Assembly (NCBI GenBank): GCA_013112575.1
Contig: JABFGG010000001.1
Span: 612,104-676,103 of the forward strand
Reading direction: 5' to 3'
Origin: Chloroflexota bacterium
Lineage (GTDB): Bacteria > Chloroflexota > Anaerolineae > Anaerolineales > UBA11579
Length of the DNA stretch: 64,000 nucleotides
In this document: piece after piece, positions 45,978 through 54,359 of the stretch
Numbering within the stretch: the stretch's first letter is position 1
Layout of the letters: each line of letters starts with the position of its first letter
The notes under the pieces: generated by a model
Told to the model about the DNA's origin: nothing
The model's input: the letters and a program-made list of their open reading frames with translations, nothing else
Database searches by the model: none
Position numbers and translations under genes: made by a program

Positions 45978-46138
45978 CACTCATCCAGAGAAGCTGAGGG
46001 ACCGGCCCTGTGAAGCTTCGGCAACCCCACCCCTGTGTGGACGGTGCCAAATCCGGCAGAAACGATAAAAAGGTTTCTGGAAGATGAGGATGACACATAA
46101 CAACAAATGTGCGCCTCTCTTCCAGGAGAGGTTTTTTT
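45978..46138 (+). ncRNA. SAM-I (S-box) riboswitch with terminator expression platform
   Basis: The core is recognisable: CTCATCCAGAGAAGCTGAGG, then CCGGCCCTGTGAAGCTTCGGCAACC, GGTGCCAAATCCGGCAG, and the closing GATGAG. P1 pairs CTCATC (45980-45985) with GATGAG (46083-46088). The terminator CCTCTC-N6-GAGAGG (46114-46131) is followed by seven T. The antiterminator pairs CTGGAAGA (46077-46084) with TCTTCCAG (46118-46125), excluding both P1 and the terminator. High S-adenosylmethionine should therefore stop transcription of metH and possibly the genes behind it. Confidence 0.95.
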
Positions 46139-46263: not shown

Positions 46264-49200
46264 TTGAACGCAAATAACCGAGCATTTACCAACCGCCGCT
46301 TTTTGGACGCCCTGGAAAAACGCGTCCTGGTCTACGATGGCGCCATGGGCACCAGCCTGCAAGAGCAGAACCTGACTGCAGAGCATTTTGGCGGCGAACA
46401 ATACAACGGCTGTAACGATTACCTGGTGATCTCCTACCCCGAAGCAGTAGAGAAAGTGCACCGTTCTTTCTTGGAAGTGGGTGTGGACGTCATTGAGACG
46501 GATACCTTCCGCTCCAATCGCCTGACCCTGGACGAATATGGTTTGGGCGACCAGACTGATGAAGTCAACATCGCGGCCGCGCAACTGGCCCGTAAGTTGG
46601 CAGACGAATTCAGCACACCCGAGCATCCTCGCTTTGTGGCTGGCTCCATCGGGCCATCCGGCAAGCTACCCTCAGCGGATGACCCGACCCTATCCGATTG
46701 GGACTATGACCAGTTGGTCGAGTTGTTCCGCGAGCAGGCTGTTGCCCTGATTAAAGGTGGCGTGGACGTGCTGTTGATCGAAACCTCGCAGGACATCCTC
46801 GAGGTCAAGGCGGTCATTCAAGGCATCCAACTGGCCTTCGAAGAGACCGGAGAAGTGCTGCCCATCCAAGCGCAGGTCACGCTGGACACCACCGGGCGCA
46901 TGCTACTGGGCACGGACATTGCCGCGGCCACAACCATTCTGGAAGGCATGCCCATCGACGTGATCGGCATCAACTGCTCTACCGGCCCGGAACACATGCA
47001 CCAGCCCATCGGCTATCTGGGCGAGCACACCCATTTGCCGGTGTCCTGTATCCCCAATGCAGGCCTGCCATTGAATGTAGATGGTGAGGCCGTGTACCCA
47101 CTGAAGCCACAGCCCTACGTTGATGACATGATGGAGTTCGTGGAGAAACACAACATCTCCATCGTGGGCGGCTGCTGCGGCACCACCCCCGAGCACCTCA
47201 AACTGTTGGTGGACAGCCTTGGGAATCGTGAAACCCCGCCACGCCCAGAGAAGGATACCCCGCGGCTTTCATCTTCGATGAAGGCCATGGATATGCTGCA
47301 AGCCCCGCCGCCTTTCCTGATCGGTGAGCGCCTAAACGCCACCGGCAGCCGCAAGTTCAAACGCCTGTTGCTGGAAGAAGATTACGACGCCATTCTGGAA
47401 GTGGCCCGTGAATTAGTGGAAGGTGGCGCGCATGCCCTGGACGTATCGGTGGCCGTCACCGAACGCGCCGACGAAGATGAGCAGATGGCCAAAGTGGTCA
47501 AGAAGCTGGCCATGGGCGTGGAAGCGCCACTGGTAATCGACACCACCGAACCGGACGTGATGGAACTGGCCCTCAAGCTGGCCCCCGGCCGCGCTTTGCT
47601 GAACTCGACGCACCTGGAAGCAGGCCGCCCCAAATTAGAGCGCGTGCTAGAGATCGCCAAAGAACATAATGCCGCCATCATCATCCTGACCATCGACGAA
47701 GACGGTATGGCCAAGACGGTGGATCGCAAGGTCGAGATCGCCAAACGTATTTACGACATCGCCGTTAATGAATATGGTTTCCAACCAGAAGACCTGGTCT
47801 ACGACGTACTGACCTTCCCACTGTCCACGGGTGACGCCGAATACATCAACTCGGCCGTGGATACCATTGAAGCCATCAGACAGATCAAGAGCGAATTACC
47901 CGGCGTGTTGACCTCGTTGGGTATCAGTAATGTCTCATTCGGCCTGAGTAAAGCGGCGCGTCCCGTGCTCAACAGCCTCATGCTGCATCACAGCGTACAG
48001 GCTGGGCTGGACATGGCCATCGTGCATGCTTCACACATCACGCCCTACGGTGAGATCGATGCCGAAGAGCGCGAAGTGATGGAAGACCTGATCTTCAACC
48101 GCCACCCGGATGCCTTGCAGAAGGTCATTGAGCTTTACGAAAACATCGACCGGCCCGAACCTGGCCAGGAAGTGGCTGACCCTACCGAGGGCATGAGCGC
48201 TGAAGAGCGCCTGCACTGGCGGGTCAATTTCCGCCATAAGGAACACGTCGTCGAAGATATCGACGAGATCATCAATCGTAAAGAATATCCAAACGACCAC
48301 GAGTGTGCCGTGTACATCCTCAATGATGTGCTGCTGCCCGCCATGAAGGAAGTCGGCGACAAATTCGGCGCGGGCGAGTTGATCCTGCCTTTCGTGCTGC
48401 AATCGGCTGAGGTTATGAAAGTGGCTGTGGGCCACCTGGACAATTACCTCGAAAAGATCGAAGGTGTCAGCAAGGGTAAGGTTGTGCTGGCGACGGTGTA
48501 CGGAGACGTGCACGACATCGGCAAGAACCTGGTCAAAACCATCCTCAGCAACAACGGCTACACGGTCTTCGATCTGGGCAAACAGGTCCCCGCGGAAACC
48601 ATCATCGAAAAAGCTGTTGAGGTGGATGCCACCGCTATTGGCCTGAGCGCTTTGCTGGTGAGCACCTCCAAACAGATGCCGCTGATCGTCAACGAACTGG
48701 CCCGCCGCGGCCACAACTATCCTGTACTGATCGGGGGAGCTGCCATCAACCGCCGCTTTGGCTACCGCATCGCCTTCACGGAAGACGACAACAGCTTCTA
48801 CGAACCGGGCGTTTTCTACTGTAACGATGCTTTTGAGGGCCTTGAAACCGTAGACCAACTGGTGGACGACGACAAACGCGTGGCCCTGTTGGGCAAGGTG
48901 CGCGGCAACGCGGACCGTGAGGCAAGCAAAGCCGAACAGAAATCTGCCAAACCCAAGAAGCAGCGTAAGGCCAAGGCGCTGCCCGCAGCCGAGACCATCC
49001 CGCAGCCGCCTGCCTGGGGCGTGAAGGTGGTGCGCGACATGCCGCTGGAAAGTGTCTTCCAGCACCTGTTCAAAAATGAACTGTTCCGCCTGTCCTGGGG
49101 CGCCAAGAACGCCCACGGCGAAGAATGGAAAAAGCTTGAGCAAGAATATGAAGAGCGCCTCCAGCGTATGCAGAAGGAAGCCATTTCCGAAGACTGGCTC

Positions 49201-49791
49201 AAACCGCAGGCCGTGTATGGTTACTGGCCTGTGCAGTCCCAGGGCGACGACTTGATCGTGTACGATCCCATCTCGTTAGAAAGCGACTCGCCGGAAGAGA
49301 TCACGCGCTTCAGTTTCCCGCGTCAGCCAGGGGGTGACCTGTTGGCCTTGTCCGATTATTTCGTCCCTGTGGATGGTGGCCAGATGGACGTGGTAGCCCT
49401 GCAGGTGGTGACAGTCGGCGATGTAGCCACAGAACGCTTTGACACACGCCAGGATGCGGGTGATTATTCAGAAGCTTACTTCACGCATGGCCTGGCCGTG
49501 CAAACGGCAGAAGCCACAGCCGAATACCTCCACCGCCACATTCGCCGCGAGTTGGGCTTGCTGGAAGGCCAGGGCAAACGCTACTCCTGGGGTTACCCGG
49601 CCATCCCCGACCTGGACGACCATGCCAAGGTCTTTGAGCTATTACCCGCCGAAGAAGAACTCGGCATGACTTTGACCTCAGCCTACCAGCTTGTGCCGGA
49701 GCAGTCCACGGCGGCCATCGTGGTACACCATCCCAAGGCCAGTTATTACAGTGTGGGCGAGAGCCGTGTGGAGCAGTTGTTGAAGGCGTGA
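46264..49791 (+). CDS. metH: Cobalamin-dependent methionine synthase
   Basis: 1175 residues, all four modules. The homocysteine-binding barrel (about 10-325) has zinc ligands in GINCSTGPEH and GGCCGTTPEH. The methyltetrahydrofolate barrel (about 345-620) starts LIGERLNATGSRKF. The cobalamin module (about 650-890) has the DxHxxG motif in VYGDVHDIGKN, with axial His750. The SAM-dependent reactivation domain (about 960-1175) has KRYSWGYPAIPDLDDH. It transfers a methyl group from methyl-THF via B12 to homocysteine. Start TTG 46264 has AGGAG 6 nt upstream. A Lys-rich linker (about 890-915) separates the last two modules. Under SAM-I riboswitch control. Confidence 0.97.
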   Translation: MNANNRAFTNRRFLDALEKRVLVYDGAMGTSLQEQNLTAEHFGGEQYNGCNDYLVISYPEAVEKVHRSFLEVGVDVIETDTFRSNRLTLDEYGLGDQTDEVNIAAAQLARKLADEFSTPEHPRFVAGSIGPSGKLPSADDPTLSDWDYDQLVELFREQAVALIKGGVDVLLIETSQDILEVKAVIQGIQLAFEETGEVLPIQAQVTLDTTGRMLLGTDIAAATTILEGMPIDVIGINCSTGPEHMHQPIGYLGEHTHLPVSCIPNAGLPLNVDGEAVYPLKPQPYVDDMMEFVEKHNISIVGGCCGTTPEHLKLLVDSLGNRETPPRPEKDTPRLSSSMKAMDMLQAPPPFLIGERLNATGSRKFKRLLLEEDYDAILEVARELVEGGAHALDVSVAVTERADEDEQMAKVVKKLAMGVEAPLVIDTTEPDVMELALKLAPGRALLNSTHLEAGRPKLERVLEIAKEHNAAIIILTIDEDGMAKTVDRKVEIAKRIYDIAVNEYGFQPEDLVYDVLTFPLSTGDAEYINSAVDTIEAIRQIKSELPGVLTSLGISNVSFGLSKAARPVLNSLMLHHSVQAGLDMAIVHASHITPYGEIDAEEREVMEDLIFNRHPDALQKVIELYENIDRPEPGQEVADPTEGMSAEERLHWRVNFRHKEHVVEDIDEIINRKEYPNDHECAVYILNDVLLPAMKEVGDKFGAGELILPFVLQSAEVMKVAVGHLDNYLEKIEGVSKGKVVLATVYGDVHDIGKNLVKTILSNNGYTVFDLGKQVPAETIIEKAVEVDATAIGLSALLVSTSKQMPLIVNELARRGHNYPVLIGGAAINRRFGYRIAFTEDDNSFYEPGVFYCNDAFEGLETVDQLVDDDKRVALLGKVRGNADREASKAEQKSAKPKKQRKAKALPAAETIPQPPAWGVKVVRDMPLESVFQHLFKNELFRLSWGAKNAHGEEWKKLEQEYEERLQRMQKEAISEDWLKPQAVYGYWPVQSQGDDLIVYDPISLESDSPEEITRFSFPRQPGGDLLALSDYFVPVDGGQMDVVALQVVTVGDVATERFDTRQDAGDYSEAYFTHGLAVQTAEATAEYLHRHIRRELGLLEGQGKRYSWGYPAIPDLDDHAKVFELLPAEEELGMTLTSAYQLVPEQSTAAIVVHHPKASYYSVGESRVEQLLKA

Positions 49792-49797
49792 GAAGGA

Positions 49798-50403
49798 ATG
49801 ACCTGGTCGATTACCTACCTGCTTACAGAATTCAAACCCGCAGTTGTCAAAAAATTGTGTCTCAATGAATCAATTGCCCGCAACTTGTATTCAGTAGCAG
49901 GTGAGGTCGACCTTTTGTTTGCTAAAGACGTTGGTGAGTTTTGGAATCAGGTAGAGGGTTCTGCTGAGGTTGAACTTGATATTGATGAACTCAAACCTCC
50001 AACAGTTATTGCTGCCGAAGACTTTAATGGCCTATTGAAAATGCCTCCTAGAGATTTCCGTTCATATCTTAAAGGGCTTGCTCAATTTGGAACCCAACCG
50101 GTTTGTCTGTATTGTCATGAAACTTGGGCAGGGGTTACCGAATATGAGAATGCCTGGGTCTTTGTAGATGGCAAAGAATATCTTTACTTTTTTGATTCGG
50201 AAGCTGAAGATAGTGCCATATATAGAAATGAAAACAGTGTTTGGGTACAGATTGAAACAAACAAGACCGTTCTGCAACTTATGCTTGAGTATTTAGGGTT
50301 CGAAGCACCCGATAAGGATTTTCCTCCACATACAAGGGAATTTGATTGGGCAAACCACAGGGTGCAATGTTCGGAGATTGGGAAGAGTAATTCAGATGCC
50401 TAA
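49798..50403 (+). CDS. Hypothetical protein between metH and the transposase
   Basis: 201 residues, acidic and soluble, with no signal peptide. No domain was recognised. It is AT-rich compared with metH and the fusion enzyme downstream. Segments such as ENAWVFVDGKEYLYFFDSEAEDSAIYRNENSVWVQIE suggest a beta-rich fold, loosely like SMI1/immunity-type proteins, but this is only an impression. It starts 6 nt after metH and its stop overlaps the transposase ATG by 8 nt. Confidence 0.68.
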   Translation: MTWSITYLLTEFKPAVVKKLCLNESIARNLYSVAGEVDLLFAKDVGEFWNQVEGSAEVELDIDELKPPTVIAAEDFNGLLKMPPRDFRSYLKGLAQFGTQPVCLYCHETWAGVTEYENAWVFVDGKEYLYFFDSEAEDSAIYRNENSVWVQIETNKTVLQLMLEYLGFEAPDKDFPPHTREFDWANHRVQCSEIGKSNSDA

Positions 50404-50947
50404 ATTGCACCATCGCCAAAGCCACCGGTTGCCCCATTACGATTATTCTCAGGCCGGGGCGTATTTTGTGACAGTGTGTGCCTACAATAGAGTCGCGATC
50501 CTTGGCGAAGTTATTGATGAAAGCGTGAAATTGAGTCCAATTGGTGAAATCGTACAAAATGCTTGGGAGGAAATCCCTGCCCATTTTGAAACTGTGGAGT
50601 TGGATGAGTTTGTAGTAATGCCGAACCATATGCATGGCATTATCTGGATTAGGGAAGATTCATCAAACCGCGTAGGGGCGCAGCATGCTGCGCCCCTACA
50701 AAAAACCGATAGACCGAATGTCAAACCGGGGTCTCTTGGGGCCATTATGCGCTCCTTCAAAGCTGCCGCAACCAAACGAATTAATGCCTTGGGGCCGGAC
50801 GCTTGCCAAAGAGTGTGGCAACGCGGCTACTACGACCATGTCCTTCGCGATGATGAAGACTTACACAACCACCGCAAATACATCCTTGACAACCCCCCGA
50901 AATGGACACTGGACGAATATTATCTTAAGGCTGTGCCCGATGGATAA
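50396..50947 (+). CDS. REP-associated tyrosine transposase (RayT, Y1/IS200-like)
   Basis: 183 residues. HUH-type transposase: RLPHYDYSQAGAYFVTVCAYNR at the N-terminus, the HUH motif in VMPNHMHGIIW, and the region with the catalytic Tyr in RGYYDHVLRDDEDLHNHRKYILDNP. Such domesticated single-copy enzymes act on REP palindromes and are not part of an insertion sequence with ends. Uniquely here, the coding region includes a perfect 28-bp palindrome (50672-50699) translated as VGAQHAAPL. Start ATG 50396 overlaps the preceding stop by 8 nt, and its own stop overlaps the methyltransferase ATG by 8 nt. Confidence 0.9.
   Translation: MPKLHHRQSHRLPHYDYSQAGAYFVTVCAYNRVAILGEVIDESVKLSPIGEIVQNAWEEIPAHFETVELDEFVVMPNHMHGIIWIREDSSNRVGAQHAAPLQKTDRPNVKPGSLGAIMRSFKAAATKRINALGPDACQRVWQRGYYDHVLRDDEDLHNHRKYILDNPPKWTLDEYYLKAVPDG
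50672..50699. repeat. Perfect 28-bp REP-like palindrome inside the rayT coding sequence
   Basis: The left arm GTAGGGGCGCAGCA (50672-50685) is followed directly by its exact complement (50686-50699). It keeps the reading frame and encodes VGAQHAAPL. The same left end is found in the degenerate palindrome at 38238. Confidence 0.85.
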
Positions 50948-51749
50948 ATATCGCCGCGCCAACCAAAACCTGTGGAACGAGAAGACAGCCATCCACGCTA
51001 AATCGGATTTCTATGACGTCGAGGCTTTCAAAGCGGGCAAATCCAGACTCAATCATATTGAATTGGAAGAGTTGGGCGATGTCAACGGCAAAAGCCTGCT
51101 GCACTTGCAATGTCATTTTGGCCTCGACAGCATGGGCTGGGCCCGCCTGGGCGCCAGAGTGACAGGTGTTGATTTTTCAGATAAATCCATTGCACTGGCG
51201 CGCGAACTGAATACAGAGCTTGGACTGGATTGTGAATTCGTTTTGTCCGACATTATGGAATTGCCGGACAAGCTTAGCGGGCAATTTGATATCGTTTTCA
51301 CATCGTACGGTGTGTTAGTGTGGCTGCCGGAGATCAAACGCTGGGGTGAGGTCGTAGGACATTTCCTTAAACCCGGCGGCACATTCTATATCGTCGAATA
51401 TCATCCATCTGCCATGGTTTTTGACATGGAGAGCAAAAAACCGGAATTGCGTGCTACTTACCCATATTTTCATTCAACTGAGCCACTACTCTTTCATGCC
51501 GGCGGTTCCTATGCAGAGCCGGATGCCACATTCGAGCAAGCAGAGCAATTCGAGTGGTCACATTCTATGGGCGACATCATGAACGCCCTCATCGACCAGG
51601 GCCTGCACATCGAATTCCTGCACGAATATGCCTACTGCGACTGGCAGATGTTCCCCTTCCTGGAGAAGCGTGGCGATTATTATCACTTGCCAGAAGGCCT
51701 GCCAAAGGTACCGCTGATGTTTTCGTTGAAAGCGACCAAACATGAGTGA
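50940..51749 (+). CDS. Class I SAM-dependent methyltransferase
   Basis: 269 residues. SAM-binding motif I is LLHLQCHFGLDSMGWARLGA (with QCHFG in place of GxGxG, as in a subgroup of Methyltransf_11-type enzymes). GVDFSDKSIALAREL and LKPGGTFYIVEYHP follow. The C-terminal half has many aromatic and acidic residues (FEWSHSMGDIMNALIDQGLHIEFLHEY). The substrate is unknown. The ATG overlaps the transposase stop by 8 nt, and the stop overlaps the MerB-like ATG by 8 nt, so these genes are translationally coupled. Confidence 0.88.
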   Translation: MDKYRRANQNLWNEKTAIHAKSDFYDVEAFKAGKSRLNHIELEELGDVNGKSLLHLQCHFGLDSMGWARLGARVTGVDFSDKSIALARELNTELGLDCEFVLSDIMELPDKLSGQFDIVFTSYGVLVWLPEIKRWGEVVGHFLKPGGTFYIVEYHPSAMVFDMESKKPELRATYPYFHSTEPLLFHAGGSYAEPDATFEQAEQFEWSHSMGDIMNALIDQGLHIEFLHEYAYCDWQMFPFLEKRGDYYHLPEGLPKVPLMFSLKATKHE

Positions 51750-52416
51750 TTTTAACCAGCAGTTGCGCATGCACGTCTATGAACATTTTGTGGAAACCAG
51801 CCGCGCCCCCAGCATCGCGCAATGTGCAGAAGCCTTGCAAATCACAGCAGATGAGGTGCGCAGGGATTTCCGCCAATTGGCCGACCTGAGCATGCTGGTG
51901 CTGCAGGCCGACGATGAGATCCTCATGGCCGAGCCTTTTTCAGCGGTACCAACGGCCTTCAACGTTGATGTGAATGTACAACGCTATTGGGCCAACTGCA
52001 TGTGGGATGCCCTGGGGGTTGCCGCTGCCTTAAACAAAGATGCCGTAGTGACGACCTGTTGTGCAGATTGCGGCGATGCCCTGGAGGTCGTCATTGAGAA
52101 TAGCGCCATCACCAGTGGAGCAGGTTTGGTCCATTTTGCTGTCCCCGCCAGCGAGTGGTGGCGCGACGTGGTGTTTACCTGACAGACGATCCTCTTCTTC
52201 CGGTCGGAAGAGCACGTACAACGCTGGTGCGAAAAATGGAAGCAGTCTTACGGGGAAACCATTTCATTAGCACAATCTTGGGGGCTGGCACAGGCCTGGT
52301 ACAGCGACCGCCTTGCGCTTGATTTTCAACGCAAAACGCTGGAAGAAGCACATGACATCTTTGCCTCCTTAGCCATGACTTCAGATTTTTGGTCTTTGAC
52401 CAAAAGCTGGAAATGA
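51742..52416 (+). CDS. MerB-like (alkylmercury lyase family) protein with in-frame TGA, candidate selenoprotein
   Basis: 224 codons if TGA 52180-52182 (codon 147) is read through; 146 residues if it stops. N-terminal winged-helix-like part (about 20-60). CMWD (Cys86, Asp89) matches the Cys96-x-x-Asp99 pair of E. coli MerB. The TGA falls in DVVFT-TGA-QTILFFRSEEHVQRW, aligned with catalytic Cys159 of MerB (SFCCHVHFFAS), and the 61-residue spacing to Cys86 is nearly the MerB value of 63. Downstream the frame continues with SLAQSWGLAQAWYSDRL, matching the MerB C-terminus (SVHEAFGLGQEFNRHL). A SECIS-like hairpin follows the TGA. The alternative is a pseudogene made by a TGC/TGT-to-TGA change. MerB cleaves carbon-mercury bonds; this homologue's substrate is unproven. 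Confidence 0.8.
52195..52212 (+). promoter_or_regulatory. SECIS-like hairpin after the in-frame TGA
   Basis: Stem TTCTTCC (52195-52201) with GGAAGAG (52206-52212), 7 bp including one T-G pair, and a 4-nt apical loop GGTC (52202-52205). The loop starts 20 nt after the TGA. In the E. coli fdhF element a GGUC-type loop lies at almost the same distance and binds SelB. The hairpin lies within the coding frame, as bacterial SECIS elements do. Confidence 0.7.
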
Positions 52417-52433: not shown

Positions 52434-54311
52434 ATGGCCAAAAATAAATTTCTCGCATTACTGGAAAAAGACACCCCCCTGATCGCTGATGGCGCTATGG
52501 GCACCATTCTGCATGGGCGCGGCGAAGGCTTTGAGGGCTGTTTCGACGCCCTCAACCTGGACAACCCTGCCCTGGTGGCGGATGTGCATAAAGCCTACAT
52601 CGACGCCGGCGCGCAGATCATCATGACCAATACCTTCGGGGCCAACCGCTACAAGCTGGCAGAACACGGCCTGGAAGACAAGGTCGAAGAAATCAACTGT
52701 GCTGCGGCACAGTTAGCCAAGCGCGTGGTCGAAGCTTCATTTAAAGATGTTCTGGTGGCTGGCGACGTTGGCCCGCTGGGCGTACGCCTGGTGCCCTTCG
52801 GGCGCGTACAGCTTGAAGATGCGCGTGCAGCTTTCAAGGAACAGATCAAGGGTCTAGCTGACTGTAACGTGGACCTGATCATCATCGAGACCATGACAGA
52901 CTTGTATGAGGTCAATGAAGCTGTTTTGGCTGCCAAGGAAGTGACTGATTTGCCAGTGGTTGCGTCAATGACCTTTACGCGTGACGACCGCACCCTATTA
53001 GGTGATGACCCCGCCAAGGTAGCCCGCCGCATAGCAGACGCAGGCGCGGACGTGATCGGCGTGAACTGTTCGGGCGGCCCGGCCCAGATCCTGCGCATCC
53101 TCAAGCAGATGCGCGAAGAAGTGCCCGAAGCGCGTTTCTCGGTGATGCCCAACGCCGGCTGGCCGGAGCAGGTGGGGGGGCGCATCATGTATCCTGCAGC
53201 ACCGGAGTATTTCGGTGAATATGCACTGGCTTTCCGCCATGCTGGTGCCAGTTTGATTGGTGGCTGTTGCGGCACAACCCCTCAGCACGTCACTTCCATG
53301 CGCACCGCCATAGAGGAGACGGCCGTTGAGGATTACAGCAATGGTATGCAGATCATCGGGGCGCGCACCCCGGACCCGGTTACAGATGCCAGCACGCCAT
53401 CCCAATTCAGCCTCAAGCTGGCCGACAAACAATTTGCCGTAGCTGTGGAAATGAGCCCCCCGCGCGGCCTTTCCACCCATAAACTGCACGCAGGGGCCGG
53501 TCTGCTGGCCGATGCCGGTGCCGATGTGATCAATGTGGCGGATAGCCCTATGGCGCGTATGCGCATGAGTCCCTGGGCAGTGTGTGAGTTGGTGCAAAAT
53601 GAAGTAGGCATCGAGGCTACTTTGCACTTCCCTACCCGCGGGCGCAACCTGCTGCGTTTACAGGGCGACCTGCTGGCAGCTCATTCGCTGGGCGTGCGCA
53701 ACGTGTTCGTGGTGATGGGCGACCCCACTGCCATCGGTGATTATCCGGAGGCGATGGACAATTTTGACTTGGCGCCAACCGGCCTCATCAAGCTCATCAA
53801 ACAGAGTTTTAACGCCGGGGTTGATCACTCCGGTTCGGACATCGGTTCACCGACCAACTTCTTTGTGGGCGCGGCCCTCAATCTCACACCGCAAGACCCT
53901 GATCGCGAGATCAAGGTCTTGCGCCGCAAATTGGCCAATGGGACGGATTTCTTCCTGACCCAGCCAGTGTACCAGCCAGAGAAAGCCGTTGAGTTCCTGG
54001 ATTATTACGCCAAAAAATATGAACCTTTAGAGCAGCCAGTTTTGGCCGGTGTGCTGCCCTTATATGGAGCGCGACACGCCGCCTTCCTGCACAACGAAGT
54101 GCCGGGCATTAATATCCCTGAGACCACGCGTGACAGGATGGAAGCCGCCGGGGATGATGGCCCCAATGAAGGCGTTCAAATTGCCATTGAATTGGTTGAG
54201 CAGCTAAGGGGTTTCGCCTCCGGCATCTACATCAGCCCCGCTTTTGGCCGTTATGACCTCGTTGCCAACCTGATAGAAGCCGTTAAAGATAAGGAAGCGG
54301 TTGGTAATTAG
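52434..54311 (+). CDS. Bifunctional homocysteine S-methyltransferase / methylenetetrahydrofolate reductase
   Basis: 625 residues, a two-domain fusion like B. subtilis YitJ. Residues 1-295 form a homocysteine methyltransferase barrel with zinc ligands in GVNCSGGPAQ and GGCCGTTPQH. Residues about 330-620 form a MetF-like barrel: FAVEMSPPRG-type start (VAVEMSPPRGLS), ADVINVADSP, VFVVMGDP, FFVGAALNLTPQD and FFLTQPVYQPEKAVEFL. The MetF part makes methyl-THF, the substrate of MetH. GGAAGAG lies just before the ATG. It starts 17 nt after the full-length MerB-like frame, so the block from metH to here probably forms one methionine-cycle operon. Confidence 0.94.
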   Translation: MAKNKFLALLEKDTPLIADGAMGTILHGRGEGFEGCFDALNLDNPALVADVHKAYIDAGAQIIMTNTFGANRYKLAEHGLEDKVEEINCAAAQLAKRVVEASFKDVLVAGDVGPLGVRLVPFGRVQLEDARAAFKEQIKGLADCNVDLIIIETMTDLYEVNEAVLAAKEVTDLPVVASMTFTRDDRTLLGDDPAKVARRIADAGADVIGVNCSGGPAQILRILKQMREEVPEARFSVMPNAGWPEQVGGRIMYPAAPEYFGEYALAFRHAGASLIGGCCGTTPQHVTSMRTAIEETAVEDYSNGMQIIGARTPDPVTDASTPSQFSLKLADKQFAVAVEMSPPRGLSTHKLHAGAGLLADAGADVINVADSPMARMRMSPWAVCELVQNEVGIEATLHFPTRGRNLLRLQGDLLAAHSLGVRNVFVVMGDPTAIGDYPEAMDNFDLAPTGLIKLIKQSFNAGVDHSGSDIGSPTNFFVGAALNLTPQDPDREIKVLRRKLANGTDFFLTQPVYQPEKAVEFLDYYAKKYEPLEQPVLAGVLPLYGARHAAFLHNEVPGINIPETTRDRMEAAGDDGPNEGVQIAIELVEQLRGFASGIYISPAFGRYDLVANLIEAVKDKEAVGN

Positions 54312-54326
54312 GCTTCGGTAACGAGA

Positions 54327-54359
54327 GACTGGAGATTTTATAATTACTAATCTCCAGTC
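54327..54359. terminator. 11-bp hairpin after the methionine block
   Basis: GACTGGAGATT (54327-54337) and AATCTCCAGTC (54349-54359), perfect, with an AT-rich 11-nt loop. It sits 16 nt after the stop at 54311. The T tract behind it is poor, so it may be a weak or factor-dependent terminator. The same letters recur in degenerate form near 28480-28520. Confidence 0.5.

Follow-up and report, generated by a model that had tools for sequence, protein, structure and literature searches.

The closest described relatives of the locus reported here are the alkylmercury lyase MerB and the selenoprotein SaoL. In MerB, according to the accessible part of PMC4525700, either Cys96 or Cys159 binds mercury, and the other hands its proton to Asp99, from where it goes to the leaving carbon. 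The available portion of PMC13188914 tabulates SaoL (NCBIfam NF040728), the MerB-like organometallic lyase of the SAO system with one selenocysteine (Sec) in the motif CU, as the sole MerB-like selenoprotein among 119 families, and the portion available of PMC9312934 has that accession under the name alkylmercury lyase MerB-like protein. The window, the whole 64,000-nucleotide (nt) stretch of Chloroflexota DNA analysed here (contig JABFGG010000001.1), contains at 51742..52416 a MerB-superfamily gene with an in-frame TGA at the position of Cys159, and this codon is very likely read as Sec.

The window protein resembles SaoL in being MerB-related with one predicted Sec, but it scores 56 bits against the SaoL cut-off of 140, so that membership of SaoL was rejected and the protein is placed by sequence in a separate, mostly unannotated branch. 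It also has Thr before the UGA where SaoL has the CU motif, and it lies in a methionine cluster. An operon with SaoB, SaoC, SaoT and others marks SaoL; of the window gene's surroundings, the five nearest ORFs were scanned and are described below. SaoL over cut-off was found in 0/400 genomes of the phylum and in none among 78, and none was so named among the best 120 of 758 matches. Homologues with a CC motif (P0196, L077) suggest that the Sec of SaoL occupies the same Cys159 site. With MerB (1s6l/3f0o) and MerB2 (5c17) the window protein shares the fold, the Cys96 and Asp99 positions and the Pfam domain, differing by UGA in place of Cys159; it scores 47.1 and 35.6 bits with the NCBIfam MerB models NF009710 and NF033555 (cut-offs 193 and 200), and no NCBIfam model reaches its own cut-off on it.

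The original prediction had left undecided whether a MerB-like Sec family had been described. One had, as SaoL (PMC13188914, in the portion available), and the present branch is separate from it by score. Among the paper matches listed, with the original SaoL papers outside the search, there is no account of this branch or of a double-Sec MerB; the word MerB is absent from the main text of PMC2398784, cited by PMC13188914 for the MerB-like family, and from the deep-Sep paper. As far as these searches reach, a single-Sec MerB relative was already known in SaoL, and relatives with UGA at both cysteine positions, some fused to an AAA+ ATPase, are new.

The in-frame UGA and its downstream hairpin

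The features of the gene are as follows.

51742..52416, + strand: MerB-superfamily gene, predicted selenoprotein of 224 residues with UGA147 as Sec (open reading frame, Pfam, alignment, model)
51997..51999, + strand: TGC codon for Cys86, MerB Cys96 position (sequence, alignments)
52006..52008, + strand: GAT codon for Asp89, position of the MerB catalytic acid Asp99 (sequence, alignment)
52180..52182, + strand: TGA codon 147, MerB Cys159 position, predicted Sec codon (alignments)
52195..52212, + strand: hairpin of selenocysteine insertion sequence (SECIS) type, stem of 7 base pairs (bp) with the loop GGUC (52202-52205), spaced 19 nt downstream of the TGA (alignment, folding, published model)

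The open reading frame (ORF) begins with ATG and contains this single in-frame TGA, which is followed, as the original prediction had it, by 77 sense codons and a closing TGA (52414-52416). The read-through protein passes the Pfam MerB model (PF03243) with 101.2 bits over residues 66-187 (gathering cut-off 27), compared with 61.6 bits for the part before the TGA, which indicates that a single MerB domain spans both sides of the codon; this is the sole PF03243 match of the whole genome. The proposed placement of Cys86 and Asp89 on MerB Cys96 and Asp99, and of codon 147 on Cys159, was confirmed by alignments. The read-through protein is predicted as a MerB fold (predicted local distance difference test, pLDDT, 96.9). 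The top structural match of the model is mercury-bound MerB2, and known MerB structures match residues 1-192 or so, N-terminal part included.

The hairpin was compared across related loci, in whose alignment TGA was taken as a residue and frames were split at TAA or TAG, so that the presence of TGA in 29/29 aligned sites is partly by construction and the unselected evidence comes from the search of 201 genomes described below. A GGTC tetraloop lies exactly at +19 nt of the TGA in all 29 aligned sites, with a stem of 6-7 pairs. When three unaligned codon-147 TGA sites are added (L052, decayed; L055, a remnant or partial copy; L084, of classical type), GGT is at +19 in 30/32. Ten new loci fetched later agree in hairpin (10/10), their sites being located by the protein motif F.[SD][EDKNQ] and several of the loci being near kin; seven further matches to this motif in L099 form an unrelated repeat stretch and were left out. 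GGT at the hairpin position is absent in all five Cys homologues of the subfamily.

In the 29 aligned sites 94.1% of paired cells can pair and three of the seven pairs vary on both sides. Double-sided changes occupy 12 cells against 4.1 in shuffles, and the covariation score exceeds 500/500 shuffles and every slid version. One branch replaces CGG-TCG by TGG-TCA, and L091 has AGG-TCT instead, a change that leaves its amino acids the same. Under random synonymous recoding the loop survives in 27% of cases, and the loop together with the stem in 7% on average. The loop Arg codon is CGG in 26/26, compared with 24% of 495 elsewhere, the codon counts and Fisher tests being uncorrected for kinship; in the window gene CGG is used in 0/9 other Arg codons and TCG in 0/16 other Ser codons.

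The bacterial SECIS model given in the accessible part of PMC13188914 has a loop of 3-9 nt with G in the first two places, a stem of 4-16 bp, a distance of 16-37 nt from the UGA and a minimum free energy of at most -7.5. The window hairpin agrees with it in its GGUC loop, 7-bp stem, 19-nt distance and -10 kcal/mol over a 48-nt stretch; the hairpin of relative L040 folds with only -5.7. Rfam gave no credible match at the hairpin.

Selenocysteine machinery and states of the site

The original prediction had named selA, selB, selC and selD as genes to look for, and all four are present in the window's genome (5.13 Mb, 44 contigs, 93.8% complete): SelA scores 541.9, SelB 374.5 and SelD 360.3 bits, and tRNA-Sec 70.9 bits, with the anticodon TCA according to ARAGORN. 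The SelD gene itself has an in-frame TGA. Since tRNA-Sec, SelA and SelB are present and SelD carries this codon, decoding of UGA as Sec is very likely not confined to the MerB-like gene in this organism. SelD is an unrelated protein, presumably decoded by the same machinery; its TGA is also followed by a hairpin, with GGT at +32 as against +19 in the MerB-like gene. A reassigned genetic code was ruled out because the gene's own terminator is TGA and the genome holds tRNA-Sec and SelB.

Within the subfamily, tRNA-Sec is present in 29/30 genomes with a UGA site and 0/5 with the Cys form (p 1.8e-5, which overstates the contrast as the five Cys carriers represent only two families); without the genomes of L052 and L055 (G102, G119) the count is 27/28 (p 2.5e-5), and the genome of L084 (G557) is outside it. 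The line between tRNA-Sec (best match at least 55 bits) and tRNA-Ser (at most 49) was drawn after viewing the scores. Three Cys carriers score 47.1-47.6 bits, barely above the Rfam threshold of 47; according to ARAGORN the best match is a tRNA-Ser in each of the five Cys carriers and in the TGA carrier G025, but a tRNA-SeC in G242 and G413 (55 and 59 bits). SelB is over its cut-off in 149/201 related genomes overall, including 14/15 UGA carriers among them, and is found by E-value in 0/2 Cys carriers within the 201.

A search of the 201 related genomes with read-through of any stop, in which the loci of all 20 matches were fetched and their residues read, gave matches in 19 genomes at 20 places, with TGA in 16/20 and no stop in 4/20. 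Neither TAA nor TAG replaces the TGA in any of the 20, one remnant having an additional TAG and one TAA being the gene end. Residues were also read in 30 loci from listed matches of the SaoL-model search (400 phylum genomes) and in 12 from a later search (10 new). The state Cys86/UGA147 was found in 21 loci in the alignment and tree, window gene included, Cys/Cys in five loci of the same subfamily and in classical MerB relatives, and UGA/UGA in eight loci. In the alignment the Asp99 position almost always holds an acidic residue, and the Cys-Asp-Cys triad is retained as Cys-Asp-Sec.

The protein database gave 201 matches. Among the best 120 of these, 116 stop at query residue 146, one being the window gene's own product, so that 115/119 relatives among the matches listed (protein entries only) end right before the TGA. 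The remaining four are P0005, P0044 and P0093, full length with Ser, Trp and Cys at the site, and P0083, which ends earlier. As a control, 154/154 classical MerB relatives among the matches listed continue beyond the site; 153 of them have Cys there, and the residue of the last one was unread. Two shortened entries are named Gemmatimonadota or Gemmatimonadales, extending the family outside Chloroflexota. Relatives thus carry TGA or Cys at the site, and rarely Ser or Trp, and this alternation, with the machinery and the conserved hairpin, bears out the Sec candidacy put forward for codon 147. In 21 TGA rows the part behind the TGA matches with no less identity than the part ahead of it; decayed copies occur in one or two relatives (L052, with TAG and the altered loop AGTC; L055, a remnant or partial copy that retains GGTC at +19), and the frame is intact in the others. 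Decay or sequencing error in the window gene was accordingly ruled out by the conserved TGA, the hairpin covariation, the conservation after the TGA and the relatives' shared end point.

L052 and L056 are gene remnants near flanking genes conserved with L046, and loss of the selenoprotein seems to be ongoing in some members of the family of L046. L084 is a classical-type MerB with Cys at the first site, TGA near the second and another downstream hairpin, without GGT at +19. In the MerB-like P0199 the N-terminal part matches the NCBIfam domain 'DF family (seleno)protein' with 38.5 bits, against a cut-off of 70. Many MerB-MerT fusions (PF03243 with PF02411, mostly 380-395 residues; P0192, P0207, P0209, P0212 and others, some named Nitrospira) join lyase and mercury transporter in one chain.

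The eight UGA/UGA loci carry UGA at both catalytic cysteine positions and would encode two-selenium enzymes in which both metal-gripping residues are Sec. Their acid is Glu or Asp (UGLE, UGME, UGFD, UAID, UAVD), and the stretch after the first UGA is more variable, with GGT at +17 in 4/8. Four of these loci, from three families, are 517-519 residues long and carry an AAA+ ATPase behind the MerB part (two fused proteins scanned score 37.6 and 30.9 bits with Pfam AAA), and the fused forms are 60-63% identical to the first row. The later search gave one further fusion, L089, and also L090, whose open frame of 283 is too short to include the ATPase. Five double-UGA relatives scanned with the SaoL model score 35-48 bits. 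In the tree the double-UGA rows form two supported groups, and a single clade was not rejected (approximately unbiased test, p 0.085). Structure prediction for the MerB-AAA fusion gave a poor model (pLDDT 51.5), which was not used.

Gene neighbourhood

The MerB-like gene lies in a likely operon whose other features are listed here.

45978..46090, + strand: S-adenosylmethionine (SAM) riboswitch ahead of metH (89.5 bits)
46264..49791, + strand: metH, for a B12-dependent methionine synthase, at the head of the likely operon (profile scan)
50685..51749, + strand: class I SAM-dependent methyltransferase, longest frame (ORF, profile scan)
52434..54311, + strand: fusion of homocysteine S-methyltransferase and methylenetetrahydrofolate reductase (MTHFR), beginning 17 nt past the selenoprotein gene (profile scan)

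The order is SAM riboswitch, MetH, an ORF without match, methyltransferase, MerB-like gene and homocysteine methyltransferase/MTHFR, and the riboswitch might control the whole cluster, selenoprotein included. The methyltransferase ORF, whose true start probably lies further in, shares 8 nt with the MerB-like gene, and because of this overlap the two are probably translationally coupled. Terminator-like hairpins lie at 46113-46132, between riboswitch and metH, and at 54313-54334, past the MTHFR fusion; the promoter and terminator scan as a whole was not above shuffles. Between the unknown gene at 49798-50403 and the methyltransferase, an overlapping ORF (50342-50947) resembles by eye a transposase of the tyrosine type associated with repetitive extragenic palindromes, and an ORF beside the copy in genome G005 matches a Y1 transposase marginally, at 22.7 bits against a cut-off of 23.

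The five neighbouring window ORFs scanned comprise methionine-cycle genes, the methyltransferase, an aldo/keto reductase and one without match. One of 17 other neighbourhoods, from the same family, has counterparts of the methyltransferase (64%) and of the reductase fusion (70%) close to its copy of the gene. Neighbour matches across families are mostly weak, one of 73% lying about 8 kb away, and proteins scanned elsewhere include 3-hydroxy-3-methylglutaryl-CoA reductase, a penicillin-binding protein, ATP-binding cassette transporter ATPases and a trimethylamine methyltransferase. An assignment of function from the neighbourhood was rejected because few genes recur across families. The cluster hints at a link with methyl-group metabolism, matched partly in the one same-family neighbourhood only.

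Proposed catalysis and competing readings

UGA147 aligns with Cys, its hairpin is conserved and the Sec machinery is present, which argues that SelB and tRNA-Sec, with the downstream hairpin, read it as Sec. The product would be a full-length MerB-type protein with the triad Cys86-Asp89-Sec147 that cleaves carbon-mercury or related carbon-metal bonds, a reading we consider likely. By analogy with MerB we infer mercury as the substrate, and the MerB scheme with Sec147 would be the best-supported mechanism. The metal would be gripped by Cys86 and Sec147, and one of the two would hand its proton to Asp89 for transfer to the leaving carbon. Afterwards the ion would stay with the Cys/Sec pair, and its removal would need small thiols or another partner, since MerA is not over its cut-off in 24/30 UGA carriers. 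Selenium binds mercury very strongly; a selenolate is ionised at neutral pH and holds mercury more tightly than a thiolate does. Sec would thus favour capture of a scarce substrate, at the cost of slower product release.

Several observations weigh against this reading. The folding energy of the window hairpin is not below that of shuffles (z 0.29), so that the case for the hairpin rests on position and conservation; further pair types do not exceed shuffles in the covariation count, and the outermost pair is unpaired in 11/29 sites. The narrow sampling of Cys carriers counts here too, and genomes with classical Cys-type MerB (Cys or unread site) mostly have tRNA-Sec (8/9 tested), which limits the contrast between UGA and Cys forms to the subfamily. 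The TGA carrier G025, a 640-contig assembly, has neither tRNA-Sec nor SelB over cut-off, and the full-length relatives P0005 and P0044 have Ser or Trp at the site. As to function, mer genes number 0 among the five neighbouring window ORFs scanned, and few neighbours are common across families (18 other neighbourhoods, 20 neighbour proteins scanned). MerA is over its cut-off in only 6/30 TGA carriers, and the window's genome is among the 24 without it, which indicates that a classical mer pathway is absent.

An ordinary stop, yielding a real 146-residue product or marking a decaying gene, would agree with the gene callers, which end 115/119 listed relatives at residue 146, and with the existence of decayed copies such as L052, with its TAG and changed loop. 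This is nevertheless very improbable, given that the TGA is replaced by TAA or TAG in 0/20 matches, that conservation after the codon equals that before it, that the hairpin shows compensatory changes and that all 154 listed classical relatives run past the site. A more serious competitor, possible although clearly less probable than the cleavage of carbon-mercury bonds, is that Sec is inserted and the substrate is not organomercury: the enzyme may act on another organometal (arsenic, tin, lead or tellurium) or in a thiol or selenol methyl transfer tied to the methionine genes. The lack of a MerA over cut-off in the window's genome, the setting of the gene behind a SAM riboswitch with a methyltransferase on one side and methionine-cycle genes on the other, and the same-family neighbourhood (1/17) that keeps methyltransferase and reductase fusion are in its favour, but the MerB triad is kept as Cys-Asp-Sec, the top structural match is a mercury-bound MerB2, and the cluster was not found in the other neighbourhoods compared. 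The protein could also be a Sec-based metal sensor, with an N-terminal winged helix on DNA and the MerB-like domain on a metal or organometal; this is unlikely, as MerB structures match the N-terminal part as well and a sensor would not need the near-invariant acid at the Asp99 position.

Beyond the window gene, and with somewhat less assurance than the reading of UGA147 as Sec, the relatives point to a large hidden selenium branch of the MerB superfamily, its proteins cut at the UGA in annotation, together with Sec-Glu/Asp-Sec enzymes in two architectures. In one of these the fused AAA+ ATPase would load, unload or extract the metal-bound domain. If this holds, selenium serves bacteria in the cleavage of carbon-metal bonds by a widespread family, and in the double-UGA forms nature would offer an unusual metal site with two selenium atoms. 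The contribution of Sec versus Cys becomes directly testable in an enzyme of known mechanism. Surveys seeking Cys159 may miss the family; the portion available of PMC8261052 describes MerB homologues as checked for Cys96, Asp99, Cys159 and Cys117.

Genome G005, which has both single- and double-UGA MerB, also carries a MerA-like flavoprotein gene (G005:C27:19421-20776; 374.5 bits, too low for the MerA cut-off) that contains one in-frame TGA; a MerA that does exceed the cut-off lies about 6 kb away. The flavoprotein gene possibly encodes a Sec-containing relative of mercuric reductase.
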